Below are positions 8,541 to 26,535 of a stretch of DNA of 64,000 bases, piece by piece. This DNA comes from Pelagibius sp. Alg239-R121. GTDB taxonomy: Bacteria > Pseudomonadota > Alphaproteobacteria > Kiloniellales > Kiloniellaceae. The stretch is from the NCBI RefSeq assembly GCF_947331435.1, contig NZ_CAMZOF010000002.1, positions 372,001-436,000 of the forward strand. The letters are read 5' to 3'. Made by a program: the position numbers and the translations under genes. Position 1 is the first letter of the stretch. The number at the start of each line of letters is the position of its first letter. The notes beneath the pieces were generated by a model. That model was given only the letters and a program-made list of their open reading frames with translations, was not told where the DNA came from and did no database searches.

Positions 8541-9935
8541 ATGGCGAAGCATACCAAGCGATACGACGTGCTGATCATCGGCGGCGGCAATGCCGGCCTC
8601 TGCGCGGCCATATCTGCGCGCCGCACCGGCGCCTCTGTACTGGTTCTGGAAGCCGCGCCGAAATTCTACCGCGGCGGCAATACACGGCACACACGCAACA
8701 TGCGCTGCGCCCATGACGCAGCAACCGACACTCTGACCGGGCCCTACAGCGAGGACGAGTTCTTCGAAGACCTGCTGCGCGTTACCGAAGGCAATACCGA
8801 CAGCGATCTGGCCCGGCACATGATCGCTCAGTCAAAATCGGTCCTGCCCTGGATCGGGGAACAGGGCGTGAGGTTCCAGCCATCGCTCGGCGGCACGCTT
8901 AGTCTCGGACGCACGAATTCGTTCTTTCTCGGAGGCGGCCGGGCCATGTTGAACGCCCTGTACCTTACGGCGGAAGAGCTGGGCGTGGAGGTGGAGTACG
9001 ATGCCGAGGTCATCGCCCTGGAGATCAACGGCAACATCTTCACTGCAGCAACCTTCGAGAAAGCCGGGCAGATTTATAACGTGTGCGCCGGGTCGCTGGT
9101 CACGGCAGCCGGTGGCTTCGAGGCCAACATCGACTGGCTGAAGGAAGGCTGGGGCGAGATCGCGGAGAACTTCCTGATTCGCGGAACTCCCTACAACAAG
9201 GGCACGATCCTGAAAATGCTGATAGATCACGGGGTGGAAACGGTCGGCGACCCGACGCAGTGCCACGCGGTCGCAATAGATGCCCGTGCGCCAAAGTTCG
9301 ACGGCGGCATCATCACACGGCTCGATTGCGTGGTTTTCGGTATCGTCGTCAACCGGCACTGCCAGCGCTTTTATGATGAAGGCGAGGAGATCTGGCCTAA
9401 GCGTTACGCCATCTGGGGGCGCCTCGTCGCCCAGCAACCAGACCAGATTGCCTACATCGTCTTCGATGCGCCTTCCCTGGAGCGCTTCATGCCGTCGCTT
9501 TATCCGCCGATTTCGGCATCGACCATTGGTGCACTCGCAACGGAGCTTGGGCTCGAACCAGCCGCGCTCGAAGCGACCGTCACGGAGTTCAATGCGTTGG
9601 TTCAGCCGGGAACTTTCGATTCCTCGCTCCTGGACGATTGCCGCACTGAAGGCTTGAGCCCACCAAAGTCCCATTGGGCACAGCGGATCGAAACGGCACC
9701 TTTTTACGCCTACCCCGTGCGCCCTGGCATCACCTTTACCTATCTCGGCACAAAGGTGGACCGGGAGGCGCGCATGATCATGCGGGACGGCAAGCCTGCG
9801 GAAAACATGTTTGCCGCAGGTGAAATTATGGCCGGCAACATTCTGGGCAGCGGGTATGCAGCCGGCATCGGGATGACCATCGGCAGCGTCTTCGGGCGGA
9901 TCGCCGGCACGCAGGCAGCAGAGGCTTGCGCATGA
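8541..9935 (+). CDS. tcuA: FAD-dependent tricarballylate dehydrogenase TcuA
   Basis: 464 residues of the fumarate reductase/succinate dehydrogenase flavoprotein superfamily. The FAD-binding GGGNAGL is at residues 14-20, and RGGNTRHTRNMR and a C-terminal GEIMAGNILGSGYA segment are typical of TcuA. The enzyme oxidises tricarballylate to cis-aconitate in Salmonella. ATG 8541 puts the dinucleotide fold at the N-terminus with GGGG upstream. Its stop overlaps the tcuB start (ATGA). A citrate- or aconitate-related substrate other than tricarballylate is possible. Confidence 0.9.
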   Translation: MAKHTKRYDVLIIGGGNAGLCAAISARRTGASVLVLEAAPKFYRGGNTRHTRNMRCAHDAATDTLTGPYSEDEFFEDLLRVTEGNTDSDLARHMIAQSKSVLPWIGEQGVRFQPSLGGTLSLGRTNSFFLGGGRAMLNALYLTAEELGVEVEYDAEVIALEINGNIFTAATFEKAGQIYNVCAGSLVTAAGGFEANIDWLKEGWGEIAENFLIRGTPYNKGTILKMLIDHGVETVGDPTQCHAVAIDARAPKFDGGIITRLDCVVFGIVVNRHCQRFYDEGEEIWPKRYAIWGRLVAQQPDQIAYIVFDAPSLERFMPSLYPPISASTIGALATELGLEPAALEATVTEFNALVQPGTFDSSLLDDCRTEGLSPPKSHWAQRIETAPFYAYPVRPGITFTYLGTKVDREARMIMRDGKPAENMFAAGEIMAGNILGSGYAAGIGMTIGSVFGRIAGTQAAEACA

Positions 9936-11071
9936 GTGAACCGCAAACACTCGCCCGGATTGCACACGCAAGCGCCAGTCTGGAGGAAGCCGAACGCCTG
10001 ATGACCGTCTGCAATTCCTGCCGCTACTGCGAAGGCCTTTGCGCCGTGTTTCCGGCGATGGAGATGCGCCGCAGCTTTTCTGACGGGGATCTCAATTACC
10101 TGGGCAATCTCTGCCATTCCTGTGGTGCCTGCTACGTCGACTGTCAGTTTTCTCCACCGCATGAATTTTCGGTCAATGTGCCAATGACCCTGGCTGTGGT
10201 ACGCGCGGAGTCCTATCAGGCCTACGCCTGGCCGCGGGCCTTTGCACCGTTGTTTGAACGCAACGGATTGGCGGTCAGCCTGCTTGTCGCCTTGAGCGTC
10301 ACGATCTTCCTGGCCGGATTTGTCGGCTGGCACGACCCAAGCGTGCTTTGGAACAGTCATAGTGGGCCAGGCGCGTTCTACCGGCTGATGCCGCACAACG
10401 TGATGGTGGCGGTATTCGGCGCCGCATTTCTCTATGCGATCGTCGCTTCGCTCATGGCGGTGCGAAACTTCTGGACCGACATTGACGAGCCCGCGTCGAC
10501 ACTCGTCCGCGGGCAGAGCCTGTGGCAGGCGATCAAGGATGCCTCAAGTTTAAGATATCTCGATGGCGGCGGGGTCGGTTGCTACGGCAAAGACGAGAAA
10601 CCGACCGACAATCGCAGGCTCTATCACCACTTTACCTTCTATGGCTTCCTGCTCTGCTTCGCCTCGACGTCCCTTGCCACGCTCTATCATTACCTGCTCG
10701 GGCTCGAAGCCCCTTATCCCTGGTACGATCTGCCGGTGGTCCTGGGCACGCTCGGCGGCGTCGGGCTCGTCATCGGTCCTATCGGCCTGTTCGTCTCGAA
10801 ACAGACGAGAGATCCAGCCCTTCAGGACGAAGCGCGCAAGGGTATGGATATCGCCTTCCTTGCTATGCTGTTCCTCACTGGTTTGACCGGCCTGCTGCTC
10901 CTCATCCTGCGCGCCACGCCGGCCATGGGTTTGCTTCTGGCCGTGCACCTCGGTGTGGTGTTCGGCCTCTTTATCACGCTGCCCTACAGCAAGTTCATGC
11001 ACGGGATCTACCGCTTCCTCGCCCTGGTGCGCTACGCCAAGGAACGTCGCAGCCATGACGACTTAGGTTAG
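9932..11071 (+). CDS. tcuB: Tricarballylate utilisation iron-sulfur membrane protein TcuB
   Basis: 379 residues. Two CxxCxxCxxxC clusters (C27, C30, C33, C37 and C61, C64, C67, C71) should bind two [4Fe-4S] centres. A membrane part with about six hydrophobic segments follows (from about residue 110). TcuB re-oxidises the flavin of TcuA and passes electrons to the quinone pool. The start overlaps the tcuA stop by ATGA, so the two are translationally coupled. The 3' end overlaps the convergent phosphodiesterase by 4 bp. The usual third gene, the transporter tcuC, is absent. Confidence 0.9.
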   Translation: MSEPQTLARIAHASASLEEAERLMTVCNSCRYCEGLCAVFPAMEMRRSFSDGDLNYLGNLCHSCGACYVDCQFSPPHEFSVNVPMTLAVVRAESYQAYAWPRAFAPLFERNGLAVSLLVALSVTIFLAGFVGWHDPSVLWNSHSGPGAFYRLMPHNVMVAVFGAAFLYAIVASLMAVRNFWTDIDEPASTLVRGQSLWQAIKDASSLRYLDGGGVGCYGKDEKPTDNRRLYHHFTFYGFLLCFASTSLATLYHYLLGLEAPYPWYDLPVVLGTLGGVGLVIGPIGLFVSKQTRDPALQDEARKGMDIAFLAMLFLTGLTGLLLLILRATPAMGLLLAVHLGVVFGLFITLPYSKFMHGIYRFLALVRYAKERRSHDDLG

Positions 11072-12958: not shown

Positions 12959-13761
12959 TCGGGATCGCTTATGGTTGTCTTAGCTGCGCGGGGTCTGCCG
13001 TAAAGCTGAAGCGCGATCAGCAGAGGCAGGATCATAATCAGAAATACAAGGGTGTAGGCGCTGCCGATCTCGAGGCGCATGGAAGCGTAACTGTCCGCAA
13101 GACCAACCGGCAGTGTCTTGGTCAGCGGCGTATGCAGCATCCAGGTCAGATTGAATTCGCCCACTGACAGGGTCACCACCATCAAAGAACCGGCAAGGAT
13201 ACCTGCGCGGCAATTGGGAATGATGATAGTCCGGAATCGCTTCCAGAATCCCGCGCCCAAGCTGGCCGCGCCTTCTTCCAGTGTGCGAAAATCGAAACTC
13301 GAAAGCACGGCAAGCACAGAACGGATCATAAACGGCAGGGTATAGAGCACATGACCGACCAGAATGAAGAGCCAGCTCAAGCGAAACTCCCGGATGCCGC
13401 CGTAGGTGACGATCAGTGCCAATGCAATCGCCAGCCCAGGAATCGCGATCGGCAAGACGAGTGTTTCTTCGATCATGCGCGCCACCCGGCCCGACTTGCG
13501 GGCCAGCACATAGGCCGCCGGCACACCAATCAGCAGATTGCAGATCAGACAGGCAACGGCGATCAAGAGCGAAAGAAAGATAGTGTCGGCATAGAGCGAC
13601 CAGACTTCGATCACCCAACTCAGTGTCAGCCCGCTCTTTATGCCCTGAAAGAAATTGACCGTGACCCCCGCCAGCATGGAGAGGAATATCGGCACGATCA
13701 GGAACGCGCAGACCAACAGCGTGAAGGCGAGATTGACATAAAAGATTCTGCTGCGTTTCAT
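12955..13761 (-). CDS. ABC importer permease 2
   Basis: 268 residues with about six membrane segments. The EAA loop reads EEGAASLGAGFWKRF, the site that docks on the ATPase. It is the shorter of two inner-membrane permeases and starts 3 bp after the stop of permease 1, so the pair should form a heterodimeric channel. The family is the binding-protein-dependent BPD_transp_1 group. Confidence 0.9.
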   Translation of the reverse strand: MKRSRIFYVNLAFTLLVCAFLIVPIFLSMLAGVTVNFFQGIKSGLTLSWVIEVWSLYADTIFLSLLIAVACLICNLLIGVPAAYVLARKSGRVARMIEETLVLPIAIPGLAIALALIVTYGGIREFRLSWLFILVGHVLYTLPFMIRSVLAVLSSFDFRTLEEGAASLGAGFWKRFRTIIIPNCRAGILAGSLMVVTLSVGEFNLTWMLHTPLTKTLPVGLADSYASMRLEIGSAYTLVFLIMILPLLIALQLYGRPRAAKTTISDPE

Positions 13762-13764
13762 AAA

Positions 13765-14586
13765 CTAGGCCGCCGCCGCGACGGTCGATCCCGCGATCGA
13801 GCGCGAGATGTAGAGCGCCAACCAGGTGATGGTTCCCAGCACAATGCTCAAGGCAGCCGCAGTCGCGAAATTGGCGTTCAGCGTGAACTCCGTATAGATC
13901 GTCATGGGCAGCACATCGATGTTGGTTGCTAGCGTGAAGGCGGTGCCAAAGGCGCCCATCGCCGTTGCGAAGGCAATGGCGCCAGACGCGATCAGCGCGG
14001 GTTTGAGAGCCGGCAGGATGACGTCGCGGATCACTTGCCAACGCGACGCACCAAGCGAACGGGCTGCCTCTTCCAGCGCCGGATCCAGTTTTTCCGCCGC
14101 CGCCATGATGGTCAGAATGACTCGTGGGATCGAAAAATACAGATAGCCCGTGAAGAGCCCGGCCATCGAATAGGCGAAGACCAGGCGCGAGCCGGTCAGC
14201 GCCTGGGAGATTTCGTTGGCAAGCCCCTGCCTGCCTGCGAGCATGATCACCAGGAAACCGATGACAACGCCGGGAAAGGCCAAGGGGAAAGTCAGCATAG
14301 ATATGAGGACTTCGCGTCCCGGAAAGCGGTTTCTCTCCAGAAATACGCCGGTGACGGCGGATATGATTACAGCCGCGATGGTAACCGCGGCGGACAGCAG
14401 CACGGTGCTTACCAGACTCTCGAAGTGTCTCGGCGTGTGAAAGATGCTCAGATACTCGGAGAAGCCGTTTTCGCCACTACCCCCGATCAAAATCAATCGT
14501 GCCATCGGCAGCAGAAAGAATGCCAGGAAGACGATTGCGACCGGCAGCATCAGCAGAATCAGCCGTGGGTATTCCGAATGTTTCAT
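13765..14586 (-). CDS. ABC importer permease 1
   Basis: 273 residues with six predicted membrane helices. The EAA loop is EEAARSLGASRWQVI. It follows the binding-protein gene after 68 bp and precedes permease 2 by 3 bp. It belongs to the PotB/PhnU-like permease class. A longer frame-shifted open frame spanning 12980-14041 on the same strand is only a shadow. Confidence 0.9.
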   Translation of the reverse strand: MKHSEYPRLILLMLPVAIVFLAFFLLPMARLILIGGSGENGFSEYLSIFHTPRHFESLVSTVLLSAAVTIAAVIISAVTGVFLERNRFPGREVLISMLTFPLAFPGVVIGFLVIMLAGRQGLANEISQALTGSRLVFAYSMAGLFTGYLYFSIPRVILTIMAAAEKLDPALEEAARSLGASRWQVIRDVILPALKPALIASGAIAFATAMGAFGTAFTLATNIDVLPMTIYTEFTLNANFATAAALSIVLGTITWLALYISRSIAGSTVAAAA

Positions 14587-14654
14587 TTTTCAAAGGGTCT
14601 GTTGCGTTCGCGGGTGGCGGCCGATCACCGCCACCCTGCAAAGCGATTGGGTTG

Positions 14655-15680
14655 TCAGCGCACTTCGTCCAGATAACGCTTCTTGAAACCGTCTTGTACG
14701 TCGGCCATCTTTTTGTAGTCGACCGGCTTGGAACGCGCATAGTCGGCAGCAGGCAGGAACTTGGCTTCGGCCTCCGGCGACATCGCACTGGCGCGCACCG
14801 GCCGCAGGAAGGCATTCGCCCAGACAGCCTGACCCTTGTCGGACATGATGTGGTCCAGGATCTTCTTGCCCTTCTCCGGATTAGGGCCGTTCTTCACCAA
14901 GCTCATGACGTAAGGTACGACCACGGTGCCTTCCGCCGGGATGACGAATTCGACGTTGGCCTTGTCCTTATATTTACCGCGATAGGCATTGAAGTCGTAG
15001 TCGAAGAGAATAGGAATTTCACCAGACAATACCCGTGCATAAGACGTCTGCTTGGGCACGATCGGGTTGTTCTTCTGAAGCCGTTTGAAGAAGTCGATTC
15101 CGGGATCGAAGTTATCGAGCGTTCCGCCCATGGCCCGGTTGATCGCCACCGCACCGGCGTAACCGACAAAGGCGCTGGAGGGGTCCAGGTAACCGACCAT
15201 GCCGTCGTACTCAGGCTTCAGCAGGTCTGCCCACGAGGTTGGCACCGGGGCACCGCCAAGCGCATCTTTGTTCACGAAAAGACCCAGGGTACCGGAGTGA
15301 ATGGTGAACCAGTGACCGTCCGGATCTTTCAAGCCATCGGGAATCTCATCGAAATTGGCCGGCTTGTAGGCCGCTGCGACCCCTTTATCCTTGCTTGCAA
15401 TCCCGAAGGACACGCCGTAGTAGGCGACGTCCGCCACCGGGCTGTCTTTTTCAGCCAGCAGCTGCGACAGAGTTTGTCCTGAGTTTTTATTGTCGTGAGG
15501 AATATCGTAGCCGAGGGTTTCCTTGATCGATACCAGCTGCGATGCCCAGTCCGCCCACTGCGGCGGACAGTTGTAGCAGATGGCATCGGCGGCAAAGGCG
15601 GTGGAGATTTGTGCGGTAAAGGCGAACGCCGCTGTCGCACCTGCGATCATCAATCTGCGTGATCCAGTTTCCAGTTTCAT
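14655..15680 (-). CDS. ABC importer periplasmic substrate-binding protein
   Basis: 341 residues. An N-terminal signal peptide (RRLMIAGATAAFAFTA, cut near AFA-ADA) is followed by a mature class of iron/polyamine/2-aminoethylphosphonate-type binding proteins (SBP_bac_6/8). The segment ADAICYNCPPQWADW contains two nearby Cys that could form a disulfide. ATG 15680 is preceded by GGGAGAG; the frame is open to 15770. It is the first transport gene, after lacI. The ligand is unknown; the operon suggests a phosphodiester or related organophosphate. Confidence 0.88.
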   Translation of the reverse strand: MKLETGSRRLMIAGATAAFAFTAQISTAFAADAICYNCPPQWADWASQLVSIKETLGYDIPHDNKNSGQTLSQLLAEKDSPVADVAYYGVSFGIASKDKGVAAAYKPANFDEIPDGLKDPDGHWFTIHSGTLGLFVNKDALGGAPVPTSWADLLKPEYDGMVGYLDPSSAFVGYAGAVAINRAMGGTLDNFDPGIDFFKRLQKNNPIVPKQTSYARVLSGEIPILFDYDFNAYRGKYKDKANVEFVIPAEGTVVVPYVMSLVKNGPNPEKGKKILDHIMSDKGQAVWANAFLRPVRASAMSPEAEAKFLPAADYARSKPVDYKKMADVQDGFKKRYLDEVR

Positions 15681-15777
15681 CTTAACTCTCCCGTGTTTCG
15701 TTGGTTTTCGTAAGAAAGAACAGTTTGACGAGGTTCTTCTACAGAGGACCGTTTTCGTCCTCCAAACCACTTAGCAA

Positions 15778-16788
15778 TCAGACTCTCGCCGGCCCAATCG
15801 AACTACCTGGTCGATAGCCAGCCGGCAGGACTTGTAATTTAGGTGCCGTACTACCCGCCATTCGACCGAGCAGGTGTTGTACAGCCGCCTGTCCCATGGC
15901 GTGCGAAGGTTGGACGACAGTCGCAAGTCTCGGATGCGACAGCTGTCCAAAGGAAATGCCGTCAAAGCCGGCAATCGAAATCTGCTCCGGCACACCGACG
16001 CCGAGGCTGCGCAATACGTCGATCACCGAAAGTGCGAGCATATCTGTTGAACAGAACAGCGCCGTCGGCGCGTCAGTCCGGTTTAAGAGGTTGCGAACAG
16101 CACGGGCAACGCGGCCTTCGACGAAGTCCACTTCGACCAGCGCAGGCGCTTCCAAGCCGGCATCGGCGATACCATCGCAGAGGCCCTGAAAACGCAGGCG
16201 AGAACGGTCGGAGGCTTCAAAACGTCCCGCGATCATGCCGACGCGCGTATGGCCAAATTGAATGAATTCTTCGGCCACCAATCGGCCCGCAGCACGATTG
16301 TCCACGTTCACCGCACTGCGGGAGGTTTTGACCGGCTGATTGAACAACAGCACGTAGGGAATGCCGTGCGCGTCGAGGACGTCCAACTGAGCAGAATTGT
16401 CGGCATCGGCAACAGTCAGGATCAAACCGTCCACACGGTTTGCGAGCAGCGTGTCGATGGCGTGCTTTTCTTCCTGTTCACGGTAGTTGCTGCAGGTGAT
16501 GGCAATGGAGTAACCAGCCGCCAACGCGGCAGTCTGTACCCCTTCAAGCACTTCACCGAAAATCGGATTGGAGAGTGAGGGAAGCAGAACCCCGAAGGTA
16601 CGGGTCCGCGAGGTTTTCAGGTTACGGCCGATGGCATTGGGGCGGAAGCCAAGCTCCGCGATCGCCGCCTGCACTTTCTCCGCAGTCGGAGCACTGATCA
16701 GGCCACGGCTATTGATGACGCGCGACACAGTCGCCGACGAAACGCCAGCGCGTTGAGCCACGTCTTTTAGGGTAACCGAAGCACTCAT
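15778..16788 (-). CDS. LacI-family transcriptional regulator
   Basis: 336 residues. The LacI helix-turn-helix is at residues 5-28 (VTLKDVAQRAGVSSATVSRV) with a hinge region near 50-60. A periplasmic-binding-protein-like sensor domain follows, containing CSTDMLALSVIDVLRSLG and ISIAGFDG. GGGAG lies just before ATG 16788. It is first in the operon, 97 bp before the binding-protein gene. Two operator-like sites at 16845-16860 and 16918-16933 lie upstream of its own start and imply autoregulation. Confidence 0.92.
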   Translation of the reverse strand: MSASVTLKDVAQRAGVSSATVSRVINSRGLISAPTAEKVQAAIAELGFRPNAIGRNLKTSRTRTFGVLLPSLSNPIFGEVLEGVQTAALAAGYSIAITCSNYREQEEKHAIDTLLANRVDGLILTVADADNSAQLDVLDAHGIPYVLLFNQPVKTSRSAVNVDNRAAGRLVAEEFIQFGHTRVGMIAGRFEASDRSRLRFQGLCDGIADAGLEAPALVEVDFVEGRVARAVRNLLNRTDAPTALFCSTDMLALSVIDVLRSLGVGVPEQISIAGFDGISFGQLSHPRLATVVQPSHAMGQAAVQHLLGRMAGSTAPKLQVLPAGYRPGSSIGPARV

Positions 16789-17201: not shown

Positions 17202-17894
17202 TTAACGCGGCGGATGGCGTTTCTTGTCCTTCGGCCGCCAGGTATCCAGCCAGCGCTGCCAGCGCGTATAAGCGCCTGTGGCCTGCTGCTTGATTTCTTC
17301 GGCACCGCTTTCAGCCGCGTCCCGGTAGGCCGCGGTTTCTTCTTCGAACTGGTCGACCAAAGGGTCAACGTGGCGTTCGCGCAGTCTGGCCAGGAAGGCA
17401 AGGATCACCCACGCCAGCAGAGCGAGGCTCAGGAGAAAGACGATGTTGAACCAGGGGACCGGTGTATAGTCAGGTCCGTCGACCTGTTCGATATCGACGG
17501 CATTTGGGAACATCGAGAAAATCTGAATACGCCAACCATAGTGCGTCACCACGACCCACTTGGGATTCTCCTGCGTTGACGACAGGTTCTGCGCCTTGGC
17601 CTGTACGTTGCCGCTGTCGAACTTGAAGTACCAGGGGAATCCCCAATCCGTTTCCTCGTTCCGGTAAACGCGCGGCGAGCCGTCCTCCCAGACCGCATTG
17701 ACGAAACGCACATCCCGCGTATTGCGCCCGGTATTGCCGTCGCCTTCAACCACGAACTCGCGGTTGACCACGTCCATACGCTTTACGTCGGTTCCGACAA
17801 CCCGCACCACGTCCTTGGACGGCAGGTAAAAGTTCAAGAATATCGCCACGAGCAGAACCAGCAGGGCCAGCGCCACGTATTTCACTATGCGCAT
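17202..17894 (-). CDS. DUF1523 family membrane protein
   Basis: 230 residues. Membrane helices at about 6-24 and 149-169 enclose a periplasmic domain of about 120 residues with the conserved-looking WGFPWYFKFD and HYGWRIQIFSMFPN. A charged cytoplasmic tail (171-230) follows, rich in E, K and R. This matches DUF1523, which has no known function. It is the last gene of a six-gene operon, 15 bp after the two-TM protein. The cytoplasmic tail could contact the soluble ATPase and coiled-coil proteins encoded upstream; that is inference. Confidence 0.8.
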   Translation of the reverse strand: MRIVKYVALALLVLLVAIFLNFYLPSKDVVRVVGTDVKRMDVVNREFVVEGDGNTGRNTRDVRFVNAVWEDGSPRVYRNEETDWGFPWYFKFDSGNVQAKAQNLSSTQENPKWVVVTHYGWRIQIFSMFPNAVDIEQVDGPDYTPVPWFNIVFLLSLALLAWVILAFLARLRERHVDPLVDQFEEETAAYRDAAESGAEEIKQQATGAYTRWQRWLDTWRPKDKKRHPPR

Positions 17895-17909
17895 CGTCGT
17901 CGGTCCTCC

Positions 17910-18188
17910 TCAGGTAAAATCGGCAATGTATATCAGTAAGGCAACGATCCCGAGCGGCACCAGATAAACGCCCCACAGAAGTTTCCTGGACAGGGAGCGG
18001 TCATACTCCGCCATGCCGCGCGCGACATAACCGGTTCTATCGCGCGATCGCACCTCGCCGCTGTCGAAGCGAGTTTCCAACTCGCGTGTCTTGCACCAGC
18101 GGTAGTAGCGCGAGAGCGCCAGATAAATCACCGTGAGGATGGCGAATAAAACAACCAATCGGATGACCAACCCGAGCATCAGGCCCAA
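17910..18188 (-). CDS. Small two-TM membrane protein
   Basis: 92 residues. Hydrophobic helices at about 5-25 and 69-90 flank a charged loop with YYRWCKTRELETRFDSGE. No family name can be given. It sits between the DUF6638-like gene (82 bp) and DUF1523 (15 bp). It is probably a membrane partner of DUF1523. Confidence 0.75.
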   Translation of the reverse strand: MGLMLGLVIRLVVLFAILTVIYLALSRYYRWCKTRELETRFDSGEVRSRDRTGYVARGMAEYDRSLSRKLLWGVYLVPLGIVALLIYIADFT

Positions 18189-18270
18189 CCTCTCATGAAA
18201 CCCGTTCCTTCACTGATTCCTGCCCTTCACTAAATCCTGCCCTCTAATAATCTCTCGTCACACATTGGCT

Positions 18271-19779
18271 CTAGCTCCCGTTTCTAGGTCCCCAGGGTCC
18301 GGATTTTACGGCAGGGCGCCGCTGCGGTTTGGACCCAGATTGTGGGCGGGGATTCCTCATGGGGATGGCGACCGGTTTGGCAGGTGAATCCGGTACGTTC
18401 CCGGAACTAGGAACGGATCCACCTTCCGCCGCGGCAAAAGAGTTCTCTTCGCCGGTTTCGCTGTCACCTTCCTCCGGGATCTCCGCGGGTTGTTCGACCG
18501 CATCCATCCCCGGCTCGGGGCCATAAAGAGATTCGCGGACGCCGCGCTTGTCGATCGCATATTCCTTGGCCAGGAACTCGGCCACATAGGTCCGTTTGGC
18601 ATCGCCCCACTGCCGGTAACTCAGATAGAAACGGTCTTTGTTGCAGATAAAGAGCTGACGGACATCCAAGGGCGTAAGATGCGCCAGCAAATGATTGACC
18701 AAATCCCGGTCGATATGAGACTTCGAGCGCAAATGATAGAAGTAAGATGGCTCCTCGGGTGCCAGCTCGGACCGCCCACTGCCTTGATCGATCGTGCGCA
18801 GGGTTGCGGCGATCTGATGGAATTCCTCCGGCAGAGCGTCCAGGTGCCGATGCACGGCCGAGCGCAGATCATCCCGCGTCAGTTTTTCGAGATCACCGGG
18901 CTGATCAGTCGAAGCCAGATGATCAACCAGAATAAAATCAAGACGCTGACGCAGAAGGCCGCGCTCATCGAGACCTCTCGCTTCAAAGACCGATTCCACC
19001 AGGCGGTTGGCCAGCAGGAATTCTGCAACGGCCGTGGAATCATCAATCGAGATCGCCGGCAAATCCGTCGAGGAAGAATCGAATGCAGGATCGCAGTGGA
19101 TTAGCGCCGGTTGCGCCGCATCCCGGAAAACATAGAGTCCGCCCAGGTGCGACGTGAAGAAATTGCCCTTGCGGTAAAGGGTCTCGGTTGGCGTGACCGG
19201 ATGCCGCGTGACATCCCCGACCCGCCCGGCAAGCGCCACCATCTCGTCCAAAACATCCTCGTCCCACCAGTCAGTGTCGCTTTCCAGGAACTCCTCCACA
19301 CGCTTCTTGAGCGCTTCCGCATCTGAAACCAGCGCGCGCGGTGTATTGGCTTCGACGCGGATGGTCCGGATCGTCAGGAGGTCGGCGGCGGTATCGATCC
19401 GATACACGGAATTGACCAGTTCGCCCATCACCGCATCGCGCGCCGTCAGCGCAAAGAGCACCGGACGATTGTCCTCGATAAACTGCTTCAAGATTGACCG
19501 GCTCGACGAGAACTTCGCACCGACCAGCGGGCAGGTGGCCTGAGCCAGCGTCAGGAGGATAAACTGGCGATTGCAGCCATTAGGATTGAGATAATTGTTG
19601 TCGCCGAACTCATCGCCAACTTCCGGCGAAAAGCCGGAAAGATCAATGTGAAACGACTCAAGCTCACTCCGGCGTCCAATGAGCTTTTCCAGCGCGGCAT
19701 TGTAACGTTTCACCTGGGTCGGCGAGGAGACCTCCACCAGGTTGCCGTACATCAATCCACGCTCGATCAGCCTCAGCAT
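18271..19779 (-). CDS. DUF6638-like protein
   Basis: 502 residues. The N-terminal 420 residues form a folded region with landmarks RLIERGLMYGNL, VSSPTQVKRYNAALE, YLNPNGCNRQFILL, GGLYVFRDA and RQRLDFILVDHLAS. I associate these with the uncharacterised family DUF6638 (recalled, not searched). The last 75 residues are rich in Pro, Glu and Ser and look disordered. No catalytic motif or membrane segment is seen. Its ATG follows the AAA+ ATPase stop by 4 bp with GGAG upstream, so the two proteins are probably made together and may act together. Confidence 0.75.
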   Translation of the reverse strand: MLRLIERGLMYGNLVEVSSPTQVKRYNAALEKLIGRRSELESFHIDLSGFSPEVGDEFGDNNYLNPNGCNRQFILLTLAQATCPLVGAKFSSSRSILKQFIEDNRPVLFALTARDAVMGELVNSVYRIDTAADLLTIRTIRVEANTPRALVSDAEALKKRVEEFLESDTDWWDEDVLDEMVALAGRVGDVTRHPVTPTETLYRKGNFFTSHLGGLYVFRDAAQPALIHCDPAFDSSSTDLPAISIDDSTAVAEFLLANRLVESVFEARGLDERGLLRQRLDFILVDHLASTDQPGDLEKLTRDDLRSAVHRHLDALPEEFHQIAATLRTIDQGSGRSELAPEEPSYFYHLRSKSHIDRDLVNHLLAHLTPLDVRQLFICNKDRFYLSYRQWGDAKRTYVAEFLAKEYAIDKRGVRESLYGPEPGMDAVEQPAEIPEEGDSETGEENSFAAAEGGSVPSSGNVPDSPAKPVAIPMRNPRPQSGSKPQRRPAVKSGPWGPRNGS

Positions 19780-19783
19780 GAGA

Positions 19784-21739
19784 TCAGGACTCCTTCCCGG
19801 CGAAGCGCCGGCGCGCCTCGGCCATGCGTGTCATCTCCTTGACCTGCGCATCGACTGCCGCCTCGTCGGAAGCATTGCCATAGCGGAACTCGCTGTCGGC
19901 ATAGCGGTTGATCTCCTGGATCACCATCTCCGGCGTGATGGGCCGGGTCAGCTCCCTGATCATGGCCAGCTTGCTGTCGTAGTCTTTCTGCAGGAACAGT
20001 TCGGGGTTTTCCATCCACTCGTCCGGCAGCTCGAAATCCATCGCGCGCACCTTGACCGCGTCGGTGATATTCTTGACCGCTCTGCCGGTAAAGCGTTCAT
20101 CGGCCTCCTGAATGGCTTTCAGATAGGCGCCCATCTTTTCAATCGTATCGAGCTCGCCGACTGCGTCACGCGCTTTGTCGAAGACCCGCGCCAGCTGTTC
20201 TTCCTGCGGCCGGCCATGTTGCTCGTAGGAAGCTGCGACCGCGGACTTAATCTCCTGAGCCGAGAAGAGGTCGTGTGACCCGACAGGAATGTCGTGGTTG
20301 GACCCCAGTAGCAGATGCAGGATGTCGATATAGTCTTCTCGTGTCTGCGGGCCGTCGACCAGGAACCGTGCGCCGGCGCGCTGACGCAGTGCGTCGTCGA
20401 CGTTTTCTGGATAATTGGAAAACATGCCAAAGGTGCAGTTGCCGCGCACGACCGTACTGGCACCGGCAAAGCTCTCCATCAGCACCGCCGTCACCTCCTG
20501 CTGGCCCGACGAAGACTGACGGTCCCCGCGCTTGCCCGCGATCTGATCGATATCGTCGATGGTGCCAAATCCGATGACATGCGGATCCAAAACCGCGCGG
20601 ATAAAGGCCTTGGCGTTTTGACCCGACTTACCCTGATAGCTGTCGATAGAGTCCGATGAGAGGTTTTCGTAGCGGAACGGATAACCGGCCGTCTGACAAT
20701 AGTCGTTCAACAGCCCGGCAATCATCTGGATCAGGGTTGTCTTTCCGGTACCGGGCTTGCCGTCACCCATAAAGGTGAAGATAAACCCGCCCAGTTCCGC
20801 GAAGGGATTCAGCCGCCGGTCGAAGTCATAGGCCATCAGCATCTTGGCCAGCTTCAACGACTGATACTTGGCGATATGGTTGCCGACGACCTCGTGCGGT
20901 TTTTTGAAGGTCATGGTCAGGCTGGTGGAACGCGCCCGGGTGGCGGGTGTGAAGCCGTCAATCTGGAAGTCATCGGCCTCAACCCGGAAGCTGGCGGCCA
21001 GGAAAGCCTCCAGCCGCGGAGCCGCCTGAGCCCGGATCGATACTTCCTCCATCAATCGCTCCATGAAGGCGGTCACGGTTGGGATCAGGGTCGCTTCATC
21101 CGACGCCTTTTCAGCAACAACCTGATCCAACTCCCAAAGCGCGCCCTTCAGCGCCAGTGCCGGATTGTCAGATAGAATTTCCTTCAGATCCTCAACCTGA
21201 ATCTCGTGATCCCCGGCTTCACCGCTATGGGCCGCCAACAGGAACGCACTCATATTGGCAAAGACATGCAGGACGATCAGCGAAGAGGCTGCCAGGAATT
21301 CACCGAACTCCGTTTTCTTCGCGGCTTCAAGCCCGCCTTCCAGATTATCGCGCTTCAGCGCGCCAAGCGCCGTCTGCTCGTCATAGAGATCGGCCACGGC
21401 ATTGGAAGTTGCAAGCGCCCGCCGCAGCGCCGACAGTACGCTCGCCTGCGTGGTGCTCATCAGAGGGTCACCCTCGTCGGCGGCTTCTATGCGGGCAATC
21501 AGACCGACGGTTTCCTTGCGGATGGTCCGGCGCGTGGACAAGCCGGGCGTTGTCGAGCGGAAGGCGCGGCGCTGTGGAATACCGCCACGCGACGGCGCCG
21601 TTTCGGCAGAGCTCGAATCCACCCGAGCCGTCGCAATCCGCGGATGATGTTCAAAGCCTTCGAGCAGATGAAACGCCGGCTCGTAGTGGCTGCGAATATC
21701 CTGTTCGCGGATCTCCATCAGATTTTTAGCGACGGACAT
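19784..21739 (-). CDS. AAA+ family ATPase of unknown system
   Basis: 651 residues. Residues 1-300 are an uncharacterised helical region. The AAA core has Walker A GKPGTGKTT at 327-335 and Walker B IDDIDQ at 394-399. Downstream, NYPENVDDALRQRAGARF carries a candidate arginine finger. Asp replaces the usual final Glu in Walker B (DDID). The C-terminal 150 residues are helical and charged. The core resembles remodelling ATPases more than ABC or kinase folds. No membrane segment is seen; the DUF1523 and two-TM proteins may anchor it. It is central in the six-gene operon, 4 bp before the DUF6638-like gene. Confidence 0.85.
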   Translation of the reverse strand: MSVAKNLMEIREQDIRSHYEPAFHLLEGFEHHPRIATARVDSSSAETAPSRGGIPQRRAFRSTTPGLSTRRTIRKETVGLIARIEAADEGDPLMSTTQASVLSALRRALATSNAVADLYDEQTALGALKRDNLEGGLEAAKKTEFGEFLAASSLIVLHVFANMSAFLLAAHSGEAGDHEIQVEDLKEILSDNPALALKGALWELDQVVAEKASDEATLIPTVTAFMERLMEEVSIRAQAAPRLEAFLAASFRVEADDFQIDGFTPATRARSTSLTMTFKKPHEVVGNHIAKYQSLKLAKMLMAYDFDRRLNPFAELGGFIFTFMGDGKPGTGKTTLIQMIAGLLNDYCQTAGYPFRYENLSSDSIDSYQGKSGQNAKAFIRAVLDPHVIGFGTIDDIDQIAGKRGDRQSSSGQQEVTAVLMESFAGASTVVRGNCTFGMFSNYPENVDDALRQRAGARFLVDGPQTREDYIDILHLLLGSNHDIPVGSHDLFSAQEIKSAVAASYEQHGRPQEEQLARVFDKARDAVGELDTIEKMGAYLKAIQEADERFTGRAVKNITDAVKVRAMDFELPDEWMENPELFLQKDYDSKLAMIRELTRPITPEMVIQEINRYADSEFRYGNASDEAAVDAQVKEMTRMAEARRRFAGKES

Positions 21740-21771
21740 TTTCTTTCCTGTGTTTTGTGCGCGCCCTTCGT

Positions 21772-22920
21772 TCAGGCGCCCGTCATGACGACGCCATCGG
21801 GCGCGACCACGTATTTTCGGATGTTCCGGAGACTGGAAAAGTTCCGGTCGACCAAAACCTGATAGGGGCGATGCGGGAGAATCATCGAGCGTTCAAGATG
21901 AGTCACGCCGGCGTCATGGGATTCCGCGTCATAGGGATCCAGGTGATAAACCTCGGTCTCGACCTCGCCGAAAAGGCCCGACGATTTGCGTTCGCTCTGT
22001 TTCGACAGCAACGTTTCCACGGTCCAGGACATGGTCCAATCCAACCCCGGTTCGCCAGCCGCCTCAGCCAAAATCTCACGCAGAGGGCCGCTTTGCTCGG
22101 TAAAGGCGTTGGAATACATGGGACCGACATGGACGCGCCGGACGAATTTAGGATGAAACTCTGGAAAATCCTTGTCGAACCCACGCGCGATTGTCAGCAG
22201 CTTCAAGTCAGACAGAGACTGGGCCAATAGATGTTTCTTCAGACGCTGCAAGCGCGGTTCGTCTGTCGTCAGAGCCTGGTCGCTGCTGTCTTCGATCAGC
22301 ATTTGATAGAGCGCCGGCAGATTGCGCGAACTGTCATAGACCGCCCAGTGCACAAAGTACCGCCGCCGCTTGAGTCCTGCGGCCGGCGTCTTGTCGCCTG
22401 ACCCGAGCCAGACCACCTGCGGCTCGTTCTGTGCGAGGAAGAGGGTTTTGTGGCGCAGGGTTTCGAAGTAGACACGCTGGCTCATGGCGAACTGCAGGCT
22501 GCGCGGCTTCTCGCGCTTTTGCAGAATATGGTCCACCATTTCCTGCTTCAGGTCCTGCTTCATCGGCAAGGAGTCAAGTTGCCGGCTTGCCTGAGACAGA
22601 TCGTTAGCCATTTGAAGCAATTCGCGGAACACCGGAAAGCCGGAATCGGTGCGGTCGATCTCCAACGCAGGCGCCATACCCCGGCTCTCTGTCCCGGTCA
22701 GCAGGTACTTGGTCGAGAGGGCATCAAAGGTATTCGCGAGAGCTTTCAGATAGCCTTCGAAGACATCGATCTGCAGCGCGGTAAAACTGGACTTGTCATT
22801 TGGGCGGTCCAGGGTGGCCACTGCCCGCAGATGCCCGACGATCCGCGCGAACTTGGCAAAATACCGCCGGCAAGCTGCGTTGTCGCGAATCTCAATGGTT
22901 TCCTGTCCGGAGTCCGTCAC
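21772..22920 (-). CDS. Uncharacterised protein, 382 residues
   Basis: Not recognised. The first half is helical (ALQIDVFEGYLKALANTFDALS, then MKQDLKQEMVDHILQKR). The second half contains LGSGDKTPAAGLKRRRYFVHWAVY, DFPEFHPKFVRRVHVGPMYSN and, near the end, a mixed segment with LPHRPYQVLVDRNF. No signal, membrane segment or nucleotide motif is visible. It lies 32 bp before the AAA+ gene and 26 bp after the coiled-coil gene, which implies a shared function. Confidence 0.75.
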   Translation of the reverse strand: MTDSGQETIEIRDNAACRRYFAKFARIVGHLRAVATLDRPNDKSSFTALQIDVFEGYLKALANTFDALSTKYLLTGTESRGMAPALEIDRTDSGFPVFRELLQMANDLSQASRQLDSLPMKQDLKQEMVDHILQKREKPRSLQFAMSQRVYFETLRHKTLFLAQNEPQVVWLGSGDKTPAAGLKRRRYFVHWAVYDSSRNLPALYQMLIEDSSDQALTTDEPRLQRLKKHLLAQSLSDLKLLTIARGFDKDFPEFHPKFVRRVHVGPMYSNAFTEQSGPLREILAEAAGEPGLDWTMSWTVETLLSKQSERKSSGLFGEVETEVYHLDPYDAESHDAGVTHLERSMILPHRPYQVLVDRNFSSLRNIRKYVVAPDGVVMTGA

Positions 22921-22946
22921 AGCGTCTAAGTCCCCAGTCTGCCGCT

Positions 22947-24050
22947 TCAGATGCTCTCCTCGCCATAGAGATTCTTATCGTGCTTCTCGACAATTTTGGC
23001 GAAACGGCGGACGAAGCGCTCGTCGGACTTGGCCTTCTCCTCGAGAACCTTGCGCGCGAAGACCATATGATCTTCGTGTTTTTCCATCATCTCGGTCATG
23101 CGGCTCTGGGTCGCGGAGCCAATGGCCGCCATGGCTGCCTGAGCCTTTTCGTCGGTCGCCACGCCAATTTCGTTGATGCGGTGAGCAACGTCCTGTTGCT
23201 GGGCCGTCTTCAACGATTTGGTCAGGGCGTCGTAAAGCACGACCCGCTGTTTGGTATCTGTCTGCAGCTTATTGATCAGCACCATTTGAGTGGCCGCCTG
23301 GTTCTGCAGGGAATCGACCCAGGACTTGCCTTTTTCGATGTATCGCTCCAGCGTCTGGGAGCGTGCCAATTTGACCTGTTCGCCCTGCACCAGCTCGTTG
23401 TAGCGGGTGTTGAGTTCGGCGAGCTCGGTTTCCAGGGCGGTGCGAGCGGCTGCGTCCTGTTCCATCGAGATGCGGTTTTCCAGATCGATGATCTGGGGGT
23501 CCATGGCCAGGATCTCGGCCCGCTCCGCTTCCAGCTCGGCGACCACCGCTTCCCGATCGTTCAGGGTCTCGCTCAAGTTGGCGTTGACCTTGTCTTTGTG
23601 CTCGTTCAGCACACCGAGCTGGTCGCTCAGCATCTTGATGATCACATCCGACTTGGAAATCAGGTCCTGCAGCTTGTCGTCGACCGAGGAGTTGCGGATC
23701 CGTTCCTCGCGCATGGAATCCGACTTGGCGCTGGAGAAAATTCCAATAAAGGTCTCCATGCCCGAGCGCTCGCGCATCTCGTCGAAGTCTCTGGAAAAGC
23801 CGGCCGTCACTTCGTCCAGCCCCATAATCAGATCCGCGATGTTCGCGTTCATCGATTCATTGTGGGCATGGACATCGTCAAGAGTCGCGTTCTCAATATC
23901 GATGTCGATATCCTGGCCATCCTTGAGGCGTGATCCTGCGCCCTCGATCTGACTCGACAATGCAGCAACCTTTGCCTGGGCTTCGCGGACTTCTGCTTCA
24001 GCGGATTGAATTGCGGTGTCGAATTTTTGCATCGAGTGGAAAACTCCCAT
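22947..24050 (-). CDS. Coiled-coil protein, first gene of the AAA+ operon
   Basis: 367 residues, highly charged and rich in Ala, Glu and Gln. Coiled-coil is likely at about 10-60 and 140-235 (VVAELEAERAEILAMD, ELAELNTRYNELVQGEQ). There is no membrane segment. The C-terminal third (QAATQMVLINKLQTDTKQR onward) is loosely reminiscent of TelA-type toxic-anion-resistance proteins, but the similarity is too weak to name it so. An alternative ATG at 24032 has GGGAG upstream and may be the true start. It heads a 6.8-kb minus-strand operon; the spacer to 24348 should hold the promoter. Confidence 0.75.
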   Translation of the reverse strand: MGVFHSMQKFDTAIQSAEAEVREAQAKVAALSSQIEGAGSRLKDGQDIDIDIENATLDDVHAHNESMNANIADLIMGLDEVTAGFSRDFDEMRERSGMETFIGIFSSAKSDSMREERIRNSSVDDKLQDLISKSDVIIKMLSDQLGVLNEHKDKVNANLSETLNDREAVVAELEAERAEILAMDPQIIDLENRISMEQDAAARTALETELAELNTRYNELVQGEQVKLARSQTLERYIEKGKSWVDSLQNQAATQMVLINKLQTDTKQRVVLYDALTKSLKTAQQQDVAHRINEIGVATDEKAQAAMAAIGSATQSRMTEMMEKHEDHMVFARKVLEEKAKSDERFVRRFAKIVEKHDKNLYGEESI

Positions 24051-24348: not shown

Positions 24349-25284
24349 CTAATTCTTAGTGCCCGAAAAAGCCTCACAGGGATCCTTTTCGTCGACCCGC
24401 GGTGTGAACCAGACATAATCAAAACGCAACGCGTCGAACGAAGGATACGCGGTTGGATCCTCAACATCCCGCCTCACTTCCACCGCCGCAAGAGTGATAG
24501 CGTCATCACCCAGCGGCGCTAAATGCCAGGGTACACCGCGGTCTTCACGCACATGCTGCGCGCCGGCAATCAGAATTGCGCCATCATCTGCGCCTTCATT
24601 CCGCATGACACGGGCGATCCAGGCATCGCGGAGGCGTTGAATATTCACCATCGCCGGCAGGATTTTCTCCGGCAGCAGACCACAATGGGAGTCGGCCAAA
24701 AGATCGGTAAGGCGCCGGCGCTGGTCAGCGTCATAATCCCTCGACCAGCCGATATCAGCAGCGGTTGCGAGGTCCAGCGGACCGCCCTTCCCGAGCTTTT
24801 TCCGGATAGCCCGCGGCGCATCGCCGGCGGCCATCGTCATCTTGAAGGTCAAGGCCTGCTCGGCAATCGGCTGATATTCCAGCCAGCTTGGCCAGCCCCT
24901 TTGCTCCCATTGAACGGCAGTGCCCAGATCGCCCAGGTTTTCCAGCGTTGCTGCTTTCAGGGCCGGGTCATGCTCAGGCTCGGTCATTTCCCAAACGACC
25001 GCTGTCCGGCGCCCCCGCCGGCCCAGCGCCGCGACCACTTCGGCTTGAATCCGGTGATGCTCCGCATTGTCGTGCTTCTCTCCAAGCAGGACCCATTTGG
25101 CTTTCGATGCCGCATCAAAGAACTCCATAGGTTCAGCCAAACGCCCCTCGCCCACATGCCAAAGCGTCCCTGCCAGAGGGTGATCGCGCAGCAGGTCCGC
25201 AGGATCCGCGTGAGCCAGAGGAAACCAGCTCAGCGTCGCAAAGCCGCAGACAAGGAGGTTTTTGATCAGGCTCGGCGATGTCAT
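24349..25284 (-). CDS. ChaN-like haem-binding uptake protein (Tiki superfamily)
   Basis: 311 residues. An N-terminal signal peptide ends near PLAHA-DP. The family motif VLLGEKHDNAEHH, the WEMTEP segment and the later GAQHVREDRGVPWHL fit the ChaN/Cofac_haem_bdg family. ChaN binds haem and is thought to act in iron acquisition; related Tiki proteins are proteases. No proper lipobox is seen, so the mature protein may be free in the periplasm. The start overlaps the stop of DUF2798 by ATGA. It is not adjacent to the hmu locus at 58.5-64 kb. Confidence 0.8.
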   Translation of the reverse strand: MTSPSLIKNLLVCGFATLSWFPLAHADPADLLRDHPLAGTLWHVGEGRLAEPMEFFDAASKAKWVLLGEKHDNAEHHRIQAEVVAALGRRGRRTAVVWEMTEPEHDPALKAATLENLGDLGTAVQWEQRGWPSWLEYQPIAEQALTFKMTMAAGDAPRAIRKKLGKGGPLDLATAADIGWSRDYDADQRRRLTDLLADSHCGLLPEKILPAMVNIQRLRDAWIARVMRNEGADDGAILIAGAQHVREDRGVPWHLAPLGDDAITLAAVEVRRDVEDPTAYPSFDALRFDYVWFTPRVDEKDPCEAFSGTKN

Positions 25285-25517
25285 CCGGTCACGACCAAAC
25301 GATGCACGATGCGTCTGACCAGGGGCGCAACCACCAGCACAGCCGGAAAGGCCACGATCCAGGACGACGCCCAGCTTTCCATCCAGATGGTAAAAAGACC
25401 GGGAACGACGCCAATCGTCAGCAGACTGGCGATGCAGGTGACCAGGCAGGACATGAATCCCGAAAGCAGAAAACCGAAGACAAGAAATTCAAAGCGCTGA
25501 GGAATAAAGGGTTTCAT
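25281..25517 (-). CDS. DUF2798 small membrane protein
   Basis: 78 residues with two hydrophobic helices (about 10-34 and 46-67). The ending AFPAVLVVAPLVRRIVHRLV is characteristic of DUF2798, an inner-membrane family of unknown function. It is translationally coupled to the ChaN-like gene through an ATGA overlap. Confidence 0.8.
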   Translation of the reverse strand: MKPFIPQRFEFLVFGFLLSGFMSCLVTCIASLLTIGVVPGLFTIWMESWASSWIVAFPAVLVVAPLVRRIVHRLVVTG

Positions 25518-25608
25518 GTCCGACCATGTTCAAAGCTGTTTGGAGACTTAATCAAATAGTGGTTTTCGGCCTCTACACAACAAGCTTTGCCAAACATCGT
25601 GCCGGGAA

Positions 25609-26535
25609 TCAAATCGCCGTCACACGATATCCGACGCGCGGAAAGTGGATACAGATCCGGCCAACCTCAGGATCTTCGTGCAGGATCGCGATCCGCTCCC
25701 GATCCAAAAGATGCACCGGCCCCTCGACACCGGTCTCACCGCCATCAACATCAGGCACTACACTCACTCGGTCACCGGCTTTCAAGCCGAGCGGATCAAG
25801 GGGATCGATTTCCTCGGGGGTCGAAGTTTCAGCGGCAGCGGCAATTTCAAGGGCCTCTTCTCCTGTCATATCGCTTTGCGTGCCATGACCCAACGCCGAA
25901 ACGCGCTGCTCCCAGGCTTCGACGGAGGGAAACTGGCTCAGGAATTCAGGTCCCTTGGCCCAGCGGCCACGAATGAACCAGATGAGGTAGTATGCGACGG
26001 CGTCAGGGAGACCAGGATGGTCGCCGAGCATAAACTTGCGTCCACCGCTCAAGCGCTGATCCATCCAGCCAATCTGTGGCCGGATCTGTGAAATGACATG
26101 GGCCAGATCGGCCTGAACTGCTTTGAGGTCCGCATTGGGCCCCAGGTAAAGCCGTCCCCGGTCCTTGGCAAAGGCTTCCGGCAATTCGTCGGCCGCCGCC
26201 CCCAGCACAAGCTTCACCGTCTCATCGAACAGCGTGCCGTCAGTCCAGCGGCTGACGCCCCAGACCATACCGTCCGAGCCGCCGGGATAGAAGGTCGGTT
26301 CGGGAAAGCGGCGTTCCAGTTCTCGCAGAATGCCTTGACTATCGCAGTAGACGTCCGCGCCGATCTGCATCACGGGGGCGCGCCGGTACCCGCCTGTTAG
26401 CGGCATCAACAGTGGTTTCGGGGGAATGCGAGGGACTTCCACTGAACTCCATGTCAGATTCTTGATCCCAAATCCGACGCGGACCTTTTCTGAAACCGGT
26501 GATTGGGGATAGGCATGAAAGATGATCTGGTCCAA
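25609..26535 (-). CDS. Glutathione S-transferase-like protein with C-terminal extension
   Basis: 308 residues. A thioredoxin-like N-terminal domain (IIFHAYPQSPVSEKVRVGFG) and YCDSQGILRELERRFP give the GST N-domain signature; a helical GST C-domain follows to about residue 215. The last 90 residues (from EEIDPLDPLGLKAGDRV) resemble a small beta-barrel, not a GST part. The start is TTG 26535 with AAGGA 7 bases upstream. The Ser in YPQSPVSEK may be catalytic; the substrate is unknown. Confidence 0.78.
   Translation of the reverse strand: MDQIIFHAYPQSPVSEKVRVGFGIKNLTWSSVEVPRIPPKPLLMPLTGGYRRAPVMQIGADVYCDSQGILRELERRFPEPTFYPGGSDGMVWGVSRWTDGTLFDETVKLVLGAAADELPEAFAKDRGRLYLGPNADLKAVQADLAHVISQIRPQIGWMDQRLSGGRKFMLGDHPGLPDAVAYYLIWFIRGRWAKGPEFLSQFPSVEAWEQRVSALGHGTQSDMTGEEALEIAAAAETSTPEEIDPLDPLGLKAGDRVSVVPDVDGGETGVEGPVHLLDRERIAILHEDPEVGRICIHFPRVGYRVTAI

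Follow-up and report, generated by a model that had tools for sequence, protein, structure and literature searches.

A co-inherited four-gene AAA ATPase core in Pelagibius and its relatives, with exchangeable, membrane-biased genes at two slots in the relatives

We analysed a 64,000-nucleotide stretch of the Pelagibius sp. Alg239-R121 genome (contig NZ_CAMZOF010000002.1, positions 372,001 to 436,000), here called the window, in which six consecutive minus-strand genes encode a coiled-coil protein, an orphan protein, an AAA ATPase, a DUF6638 protein and two membrane proteins. An initial annotation had described them as one unit with intergenic gaps of 26, 32, 4, 82 and 15 bp, and all of these open reading frames (ORFs) and gaps were found again from the ORF coordinates. 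The genes are given below in their order on the minus strand, together with the two junctions, or slots, at which relatives of this locus carry additional genes; TM stands for transmembrane.

22947..24050, minus strand: coiled-coil protein, 367 aa, core gene 1; ORF, nothing in Pfam above cut-off
22921..22946, minus strand: slot 1, the coiled-coil/orphan junction, 26 bp, empty in the window
21772..22920, minus strand: orphan protein, 382 aa, GTG start, core gene 2; ORF, predicted helical bundle and mixed sheet
19784..21739, minus strand: AAA ATPase, 651 aa, core gene 3; Pfam AAA, 1e-13
19780..19783, minus strand: slot 2, the ATPase/DUF6638 junction, 4 bp, empty in the window
18271..19779, minus strand: DUF6638 protein, 502 aa, core gene 4; Pfam DUF6638, 3.8e-147
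17910..18188, minus strand: small two-TM protein, 92 aa, separable membrane partner; TTG start, in-frame ATG possible at 18179
17202..17894, minus strand: DUF1523 membrane protein, 230 aa, separable membrane partner; Pfam DUF1523, 8.6e-62

The three Pfam assignments scored 52.3 bits for the ATPase (PF00004, curated cut-off 21.2), 491.1 bits for DUF6638 (PF20343, cut-off 27) and 208.1 bits for DUF1523 (PF07509, cut-off 23). The coiled-coil, orphan and two-TM proteins had no Pfam match above the curated cut-offs and at most weak matches in NCBIfam, PADLOC and PHROGs. Two of the starts deserve a comment. Homologues of the coiled-coil protein point to the internal Met7, at about base 24032, which suggests that translation begins there, and if the two-TM protein starts at the ATG at 18179 rather than at the TTG at 18188 the 82-bp gap becomes 91 bp. 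A promoter and terminator scan gave a signal about equal to that of shuffled sequences.

The distribution of these genes was followed in three samples, comprising 398 genomes of the phylum, 240 of the class (the Pelagibius genome included) and 120 of the family of genome G022. We take this family to be the Rhodobacteraceae on the strength of two of its loci, L009 and L010, whose ATPases share 84-87% identity with those of Shimia and Sulfitobacter loci. The ATPase and DUF6638 occurred in an identical set of 26 of the 398 phylum genomes, and again in an identical set of four of the 240 class genomes, Pelagibius among them. In the family sample 50 of 120 genomes had the ATPase; the orphan was confined to these 50 and present in all of them, as was the coiled-coil protein apart from a weak fragment in one more genome, G306. 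Nearly always there was a single copy of the core per genome in the samples searched. DUF1523 followed a different pattern, being present in 106 of the 120 family genomes, that is in all 50 core-positive and in 56 of the 70 core-negative genomes. The two-TM gene accompanied it in 15 of 18 core-negative regions, including that of G306, and was absent from three (L114, L115 and L117). Because both genes persist without the core they form a separable pair, and the unit is a four-gene core of coiled-coil protein, orphan, AAA ATPase and DUF6638. The initial annotation was thus right about a tightly coupled, co-inherited set built round one AAA ATPase with membrane proteins, and wrong in counting six genes to it; homologues that are usually found apart, which it had named as evidence against the unit, are what we see for the two-TM/DUF1523 pair and not for the four core genes. 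In G306 itself (L113, 3370-6782) fragments of the coiled-coil and DUF6638 genes remain, the ATPase and orphan are missing, and the two-TM and DUF1523 genes are still there; this module looks like a decayed copy.

Gene order was compared in named genomes scanned with the ATPase alignment, which yielded at least 561 relatives. The best 80 were kept and three others added, and consequently the count leans towards close relatives and is heavy in Rhodobacteraceae. Within these 83 loci the order coiled-coil, orphan, AAA, DUF6638, DUF1523 was kept in 74, and 72 of the 74 also had the two-TM gene; the 74 include L065, where the contig ends within the coiled-coil ORF, and two loci in which DUF1523 is divided between two ORFs (L038 and L088). 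Eight of the nine exceptions lie at a contig end. The ninth, L035, has a full-length ATPase (9001-10935) with no other core gene in 19.9 kb of a contig from a metagenome-assembled genome, and may be a chimera or a true solitary copy. The same arrangement extends well beyond these loci. Genome G399, from another class, has all six genes in order, and G599 keeps the order and has no two-TM gene. Six loci of family f156, probably rhizobial, have the four core genes in order with neither two-TM nor DUF1523 genes, although for one of them (L129) only about 1.6 kb downstream was covered. Ten plasmid records carried the ATPase, four from Sinorhizobium, four from Vibrio and one each from Shinella and Rhizobium.

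Profile searches found the four core genes in conserved order in Sinorhizobium meliloti (L143), Shinella (L146), Vibrio vulnificus (L144) and one contig filed as viral in IMG/VR (L142). S. meliloti has DUF2333 after DUF6638 instead of the DUF1523 pair. V. vulnificus has no slot genes, a layout that the annotation of V. parahaemolyticus (L145) also shows; both Vibrio replicons measure about 0.9 Mb, and in each DUF6638 is directly followed by a gene annotated as mfd (transcription-repair coupling factor; 13280-16741). The IMG/VR contig, 359 kb long, carries DUF2333, coiled-coil, orphan, ATPase and DUF6638 in this order. A broader second scan of IMG/VR returned this contig and no other, the window ATPase had no match in phage records, and the ATPase of L142 used as query there gave one short match at 26% identity, which we disregarded. 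Reading the short ORFs in 17.9 kb of L142 (518-1425, 2904-3347 and 13727-16268) suggested truncated FliG- and FliM-like proteins, an SmpB-like protein, a spanin-like pair, DnaJ and peptide deformylase; its DUF2333 and DUF2201_N were identified by more than reading. Genes of this kind beside the core would be unusual in a phage, and L142 is best called a putative viral contig.

These distributions bear on the simplest alternative, that the genes adjoin by chance or are unrelated genes in one transcript. The lone ATPase at one of 83 loci and the separability of the two-TM/DUF1523 pair are what such an arrangement might give, but matching presence sets in samples of 398, 240 and 120 genomes and an order that is constant across classes make it barely conceivable as a general account, and for the four-gene core chance adjacency is effectively refuted.

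Comparison with relatives also revealed a feature that the initial annotation had missed, and could not have seen because both slots are empty in the window. Among close relatives the coiled-coil/orphan gap exceeded 60 bp in 56 of 80 loci (60 bp or less in 24), and the ATPase/DUF6638 gap exceeded 60 bp in 69 of 77 (60 bp or less in eight). Slots of at least 150 bp nearly all contained same-strand ORFs of at least 60 aa (46 of 48 and 62 of 63, for the coiled-coil/orphan and ATPase/DUF6638 slots respectively). In most of the close relatives read, the ATPase/DUF6638 slot is occupied by one gene or by several. An exact four-base overlap between the start codon of a slot gene and the stop of the gene upstream was seen in 16 of 48 coiled-coil/orphan slots and in 32 of 63 ATPase/DUF6638 slots. 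Such overlaps are common in bacterial operons, and they are therefore a sign of coupling and not of a special mechanism. The slot genes encode mostly membrane proteins. A TM segment was predicted in 107 of 137 same-strand slot ORFs and in eight of 192 antisense control ORFs, using simple hydropathy and a looser start rule for the controls. Grouped by family, 54 of 79 slot families were membrane proteins versus 14 of 62 families of flanking genes (Fisher p 8e-8); most slot families (60 of 79) have a single member, and among the 19 with several members 15 were membrane families (p 1.5e-5).

Slot content changes between close relatives. In pairs of loci whose ATPases are at least 90% identical, related content was found in only 19 of 134 ATPase/DUF6638 slots and 18 of 134 coiled-coil/orphan slots, relatedness being judged by tblastx with E up to 1e-4 and most of the 134 pairs coming from one cluster. 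This cluster consists of 16 Ruegeria-group loci, 13 of them named Ruegeria, which among them show 11 arrangements at the coiled-coil/orphan slot and 14 at the ATPase/DUF6638 slot. In 40 of the 120 Ruegeria-group pairs we measured nucleotide identity over 240 bp on each side of the slots; the medians were 0.94 and 0.92 beside slot 1 and 0.94 and 0.93 beside slot 2, while inside both slots the median was 0.43, which is about the global alignment identity of unrelated DNA. Three flagellar-type genes, named by reading, are fixed downstream in 15 of the 16 loci. With the flanks alike, the downstream genes fixed and the slot content unlike, genes have been replaced at the junctions. The smaller clusters follow the same trend with exceptions: L060 and L087 share their ATPase/DUF6638 occupant, as do L070 and L082, and in L026 and L048 this slot is empty. 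The slots thus exchange whole genes, mostly for small membrane proteins, even between close species.

The cargo itself was examined in 100 of the 137 slot proteins, the 37 excluded being 35 plus-strand proteins and two of L010. Most had no Pfam match at E up to 0.001. Six Pfam families were found at this threshold in one protein each, namely putAbiC, DUF4279, AbiJ_NTD4 (L061), DUF2971 (L088), Phd/YefM and Cyt_c_ox_IV, so that three of the six are of Abi or antitoxin type; a weak HNH match in L091 fell under the cut-off. Defence enrichment by PADLOC counts was considered and rejected, because more PADLOC families were matched by the 62 proteins of the flanking control (27) than by the 100 slot proteins (seven), and we do not use these counts as evidence. 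The same flanking control matched 92 Pfam families, mostly housekeeping among the 25 matches listed. The putAbiC-like family comprises 12 slot proteins and was found in four of the 120 family genomes, in two of them adjoining the ATPase, the other two being core-negative and carrying it elsewhere. Members of so divergent a family may have escaped the search, and the match in G241 covers 57 positions. A three-TM slot family occurred in 22 of the 120 family genomes, beside the ATPase in 11 core-positive ones and 29-807 bp upstream of DUF1523 in 11 that are core-negative. At least one slot family is therefore a membrane partner rather than cargo. In four of the core-negative genomes (G323, G345, G286 and G324) the three-TM gene lies 29-85 bp upstream of DUF1523, with no space for a two-TM gene.

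A quite different account of the slots has to be taken seriously, and we regard it as a real, if tentative, possibility. The locus could be an ordinary, niche-dependent envelope or stress machine whose junctions are tolerated insertion sites in a well-transcribed operon, the slot genes being independent of the core. Several observations point this way. At the ATPase/DUF6638 junction of S. meliloti (L143, 10106-11851) there is a DUF559 endonuclease-like gene together with an ISRm16 IS4-like transposase, so that a mobile element has evidently landed in this slot; ORFs that by reading resemble these lie at the same junction in L129-L133, and the rhizobial DUF559 gene could be a mobile gene of a generic kind. 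In L137 a Fic-like ORF of 276 aa, also named by reading, occupies a third junction, between orphan and AAA. The stable, ordinary neighbours, the many short junctions, the PADLOC control and the occurrence of the Abi-like slot family outside slots fit this account as well. Random accessory genes would not be expected, however, to be so biased towards membrane proteins (54 of 79 versus 14 of 62 families), nor to reuse the same two junctions, often with exact start/stop overlaps.

The core proteins themselves were searched for clues to their activity. About 300 aa at the N-terminus of the ATPase lie outside any family match. In the remainder, Walker A reads GKPGTGKTT and Walker B ends in DD, the second region of homology contains ALRQR, and the sensor-2 region contains FTGR. 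In 75 homologues the Walker A pattern G..GTGKTT was found in 72, SNYP...DDALRQRAG.R in 72 and the sensor-2 FTGR in all 75, and the GPGTGKT residues and ALRQR were invariant in eight diverse homologues. The arginines of the second region probably act as arginine fingers. The Walker B DD is present in all 75 homologues, 69 of them by a first pattern and six that this pattern missed, and both aspartates were invariant in all eight diverse homologues. The family thus lacks the DE ending, with its catalytic glutamate, of the classical AAA Walker B; this is a departure within the AAA family and not evidence against membership, and it may mean slow hydrolysis. By mean pairwise identity the coiled-coil protein (0.79) and the ATPase (0.76) are the most constrained of the four, followed by the orphan (0.64) and DUF6638 (0.63), and the coiled-coil protein has a median identity of 71% to 74 homologues.

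Folds were less informative. Profile searches of the Protein Data Bank (PDB) with the orphan, DUF6638, coiled-coil and DUF1523 proteins gave no match with E below 0.04. The model of the orphan (pLDDT, the predicted local distance difference test, 90.4) shows a helical bundle followed by a mixed sheet, and had no Foldseek match at E up to 0.001. The structural neighbours of the sheet (about 181-345) are mainly T-fold, or tunnelling-fold, proteins, such as urate oxidase (5yja_D, Z 4.8, root-mean-square deviation 3.6, 121 aligned), QueF-like, PTPS and DHNA proteins, none with Z above 5.0; this resemblance is a hint only. The DUF6638 model (pLDDT 79.5, with a low-confidence C-terminal tail at 437-502) likewise gave no Foldseek match at E up to 0.001 and Z of at most 4.6. 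Several identities were considered and rejected. The orphan and DUF6638 gave no sign of being paralogues (hhalign probability 0.1). A methyltransferase assignment of DUF6638 came from one of 34 homologues (PADLOC MTase_II, 4.5e-5) and was treated as chance. A TelA identity for the coiled-coil protein was dropped, since PF05816 was not found in its own genome and the protein has no Pfam match, and the idea of a HORMA/TRIP13 system goes back to a weak, AAA-level PADLOC score. The core proteins did not match any PADLOC-listed anti-phage system as a set; the single weak matches were TRIP13 (4.1e-6) and IetA (6e-4) for the ATPase and NsnC (0.057) for the coiled-coil protein.

By sequence, the PDB chains nearest to the ATPase are those of i-AAA protease, fidgetin-like, katanin and Vps4 proteins. 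This raises the possibility that the coiled-coil protein is a membrane-remodelling polymer which the ATPase disassembles, as Vps4 does with ESCRT-III and as has been proposed for some PspA/AAA+ operons, the membrane proteins marking the site of action. The strong constraint on coiled-coil protein and ATPase would suit such a pair, and Vps4-like and PspA/AAA+ operons are on record (PMC11237479). Yet what the ATPase resembles is the entire AAA clade, Pfam found no MIT domain in it, and the coiled-coil protein of the window matched none of the Pfam profiles PspA_IM30, Snf7 and TelA at E up to 1; nor, among the matches listed (25 of 28 families), did 28 of its homologues at E up to 0.1. We consider this explanation unlikely.

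The surroundings of the core are unremarkable. An ArgE-like gene, named by reading, is next upstream in five core-positive and three core-negative loci and second in a sixth core-positive one. Behind it a pan-type gene follows in L050, L058, L059 and L068 and in core-negative L102 and L111, and pantothenate families were found among the flanking Pfam matches. Since upstream neighbours are common to loci with and without the core, the block appears to have been gained or lost as a whole at one chromosomal site in these loci. In the window, the genes at 14655-16788 and 24349-26535 (by reading, an ABC-transporter binding protein, a LacI-type regulator, and ChaN-like and glutathione-transferase-like proteins) include none that resembles a defence gene.

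Taking these observations together, we favour, with a probability of about 0.45, a remodelling core of the AAA+ type that docks at the membrane and is served by interchangeable membrane effectors or adaptors, with a role in defence or stress. The coiled-coil protein, orphan, ATPase and DUF6638 would form one cytosolic, ATP-driven remodelling machine, in which a hexamer of the ATPase would pull on or disassemble an assembly of the coiled-coil protein while the orphan and DUF6638 serve as adaptors or scaffold. Docking at the inner membrane would be provided by the coupled membrane proteins that adjoin the block, either two-TM/DUF1523, sometimes with the three-TM protein, or DUF2333. The exchangeable membrane or Abi-like proteins might then be effectors or adaptors, restrained by the core or triggered by it in response to phage or envelope stress; an arms race or diversifying pressure might be the reason why they are exchanged so rapidly. 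The window would hold the empty-slot version, with two-TM/DUF1523 as its membrane partner.

It is the exchange, the patchiness (50 of 120 family genomes) and the few Abi-, antitoxin- and nuclease-like occupants that suggest a role in defence. That suggestion is weakened by the neighbours, which are ordinary chromosomal genes (flagellar, pan, choline transport) and not defence islands, by the occurrence of membrane partners, the three-TM family included, in genomes that lack the core, and by a PADLOC control that does not discriminate. Also counting against the proposal are the small number of Abi- and antitoxin-type families, the putAbiC-like genes outside slots in two of four genomes, which fits hitchhiking, the short junctions in many core loci, the lone ATPase of L035, the single viral-filed contig and the fold searches that ended with no firm match. 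A bolder form of the proposal is somewhat doubtful. It would make the locus a platform for bacterial conflict, with a four-protein AAA+ core and two cassette ports where close relatives swap small membrane effectors at exact junctions, a platform that has moved between alpha- and gammaproteobacteria and possibly a giant phage, the window being the cassette-free form.

The core ATPase is present in 50 of 120 family genomes and in rhizobia, while DUF6638 is not named in the literature searched. If the slot proteins are effectors of the core, dozens of unstudied membrane-protein families would come within reach through one machine, and the fixed junctions would amount to a natural experiment in gene exchange; if the junctions are tolerated insertion sites instead, the locus shows cleanly how a conserved operon can serve as an internal insertion hotspot.

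A confident match to a described system, which the initial annotation had named as evidence against its reading, was not found in Pfam, NCBIfam, PADLOC, PHROGs, the PDB sequences or the literature searched. That literature had nothing on PDC-S31 either. The passages found on DUF1523 say nothing about this operon; in one, a 112-aa mycobacteriophage protein that carries the DUF1523 label, and may or may not be related to the window protein, scored +++ in a growth-inhibition table (PMC9339283). DUF2333 is known from a type VI secretion system locus in one paper.

Four known types of system nevertheless offer comparisons. TelA toxic-anion-resistance systems have a long coiled-coil protein and a suspected stress context, from which the present locus differs in that its coiled-coil protein has no match and PF05816 was not found in its own genome. 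The TRIP13/Pch2 ATPases of CBASS provide the best PADLOC match of our ATPase (4.1e-6), and the two have the arginine of the sensor-2 motif in common, but this is a weak score that any AAA domain may give, and no HORMA, cyclase or CBASS effector match was found among the six proteins. BREX and restriction-modification operons also combine conserved core genes with variable accessory genes at fixed internal junctions, as seen here; the present core has no BREX or convincing restriction-modification match, its slots hold mostly small membrane proteins and its neighbours are ordinary chromosomal genes. The nearest analogy is with the Vps4/ESCRT-III and PspA/AAA+ operons described in PMC11237479, which likewise pair a classical AAA ATPase with a helical coiled-coil protein and add membrane proteins as partners. 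The present locus departs from them in having no PspA, Snf7 or MIT match, and in a Walker B that ends in DD, an orphan and a DUF6638 protein within the core, and slots whose genes are exchanged.

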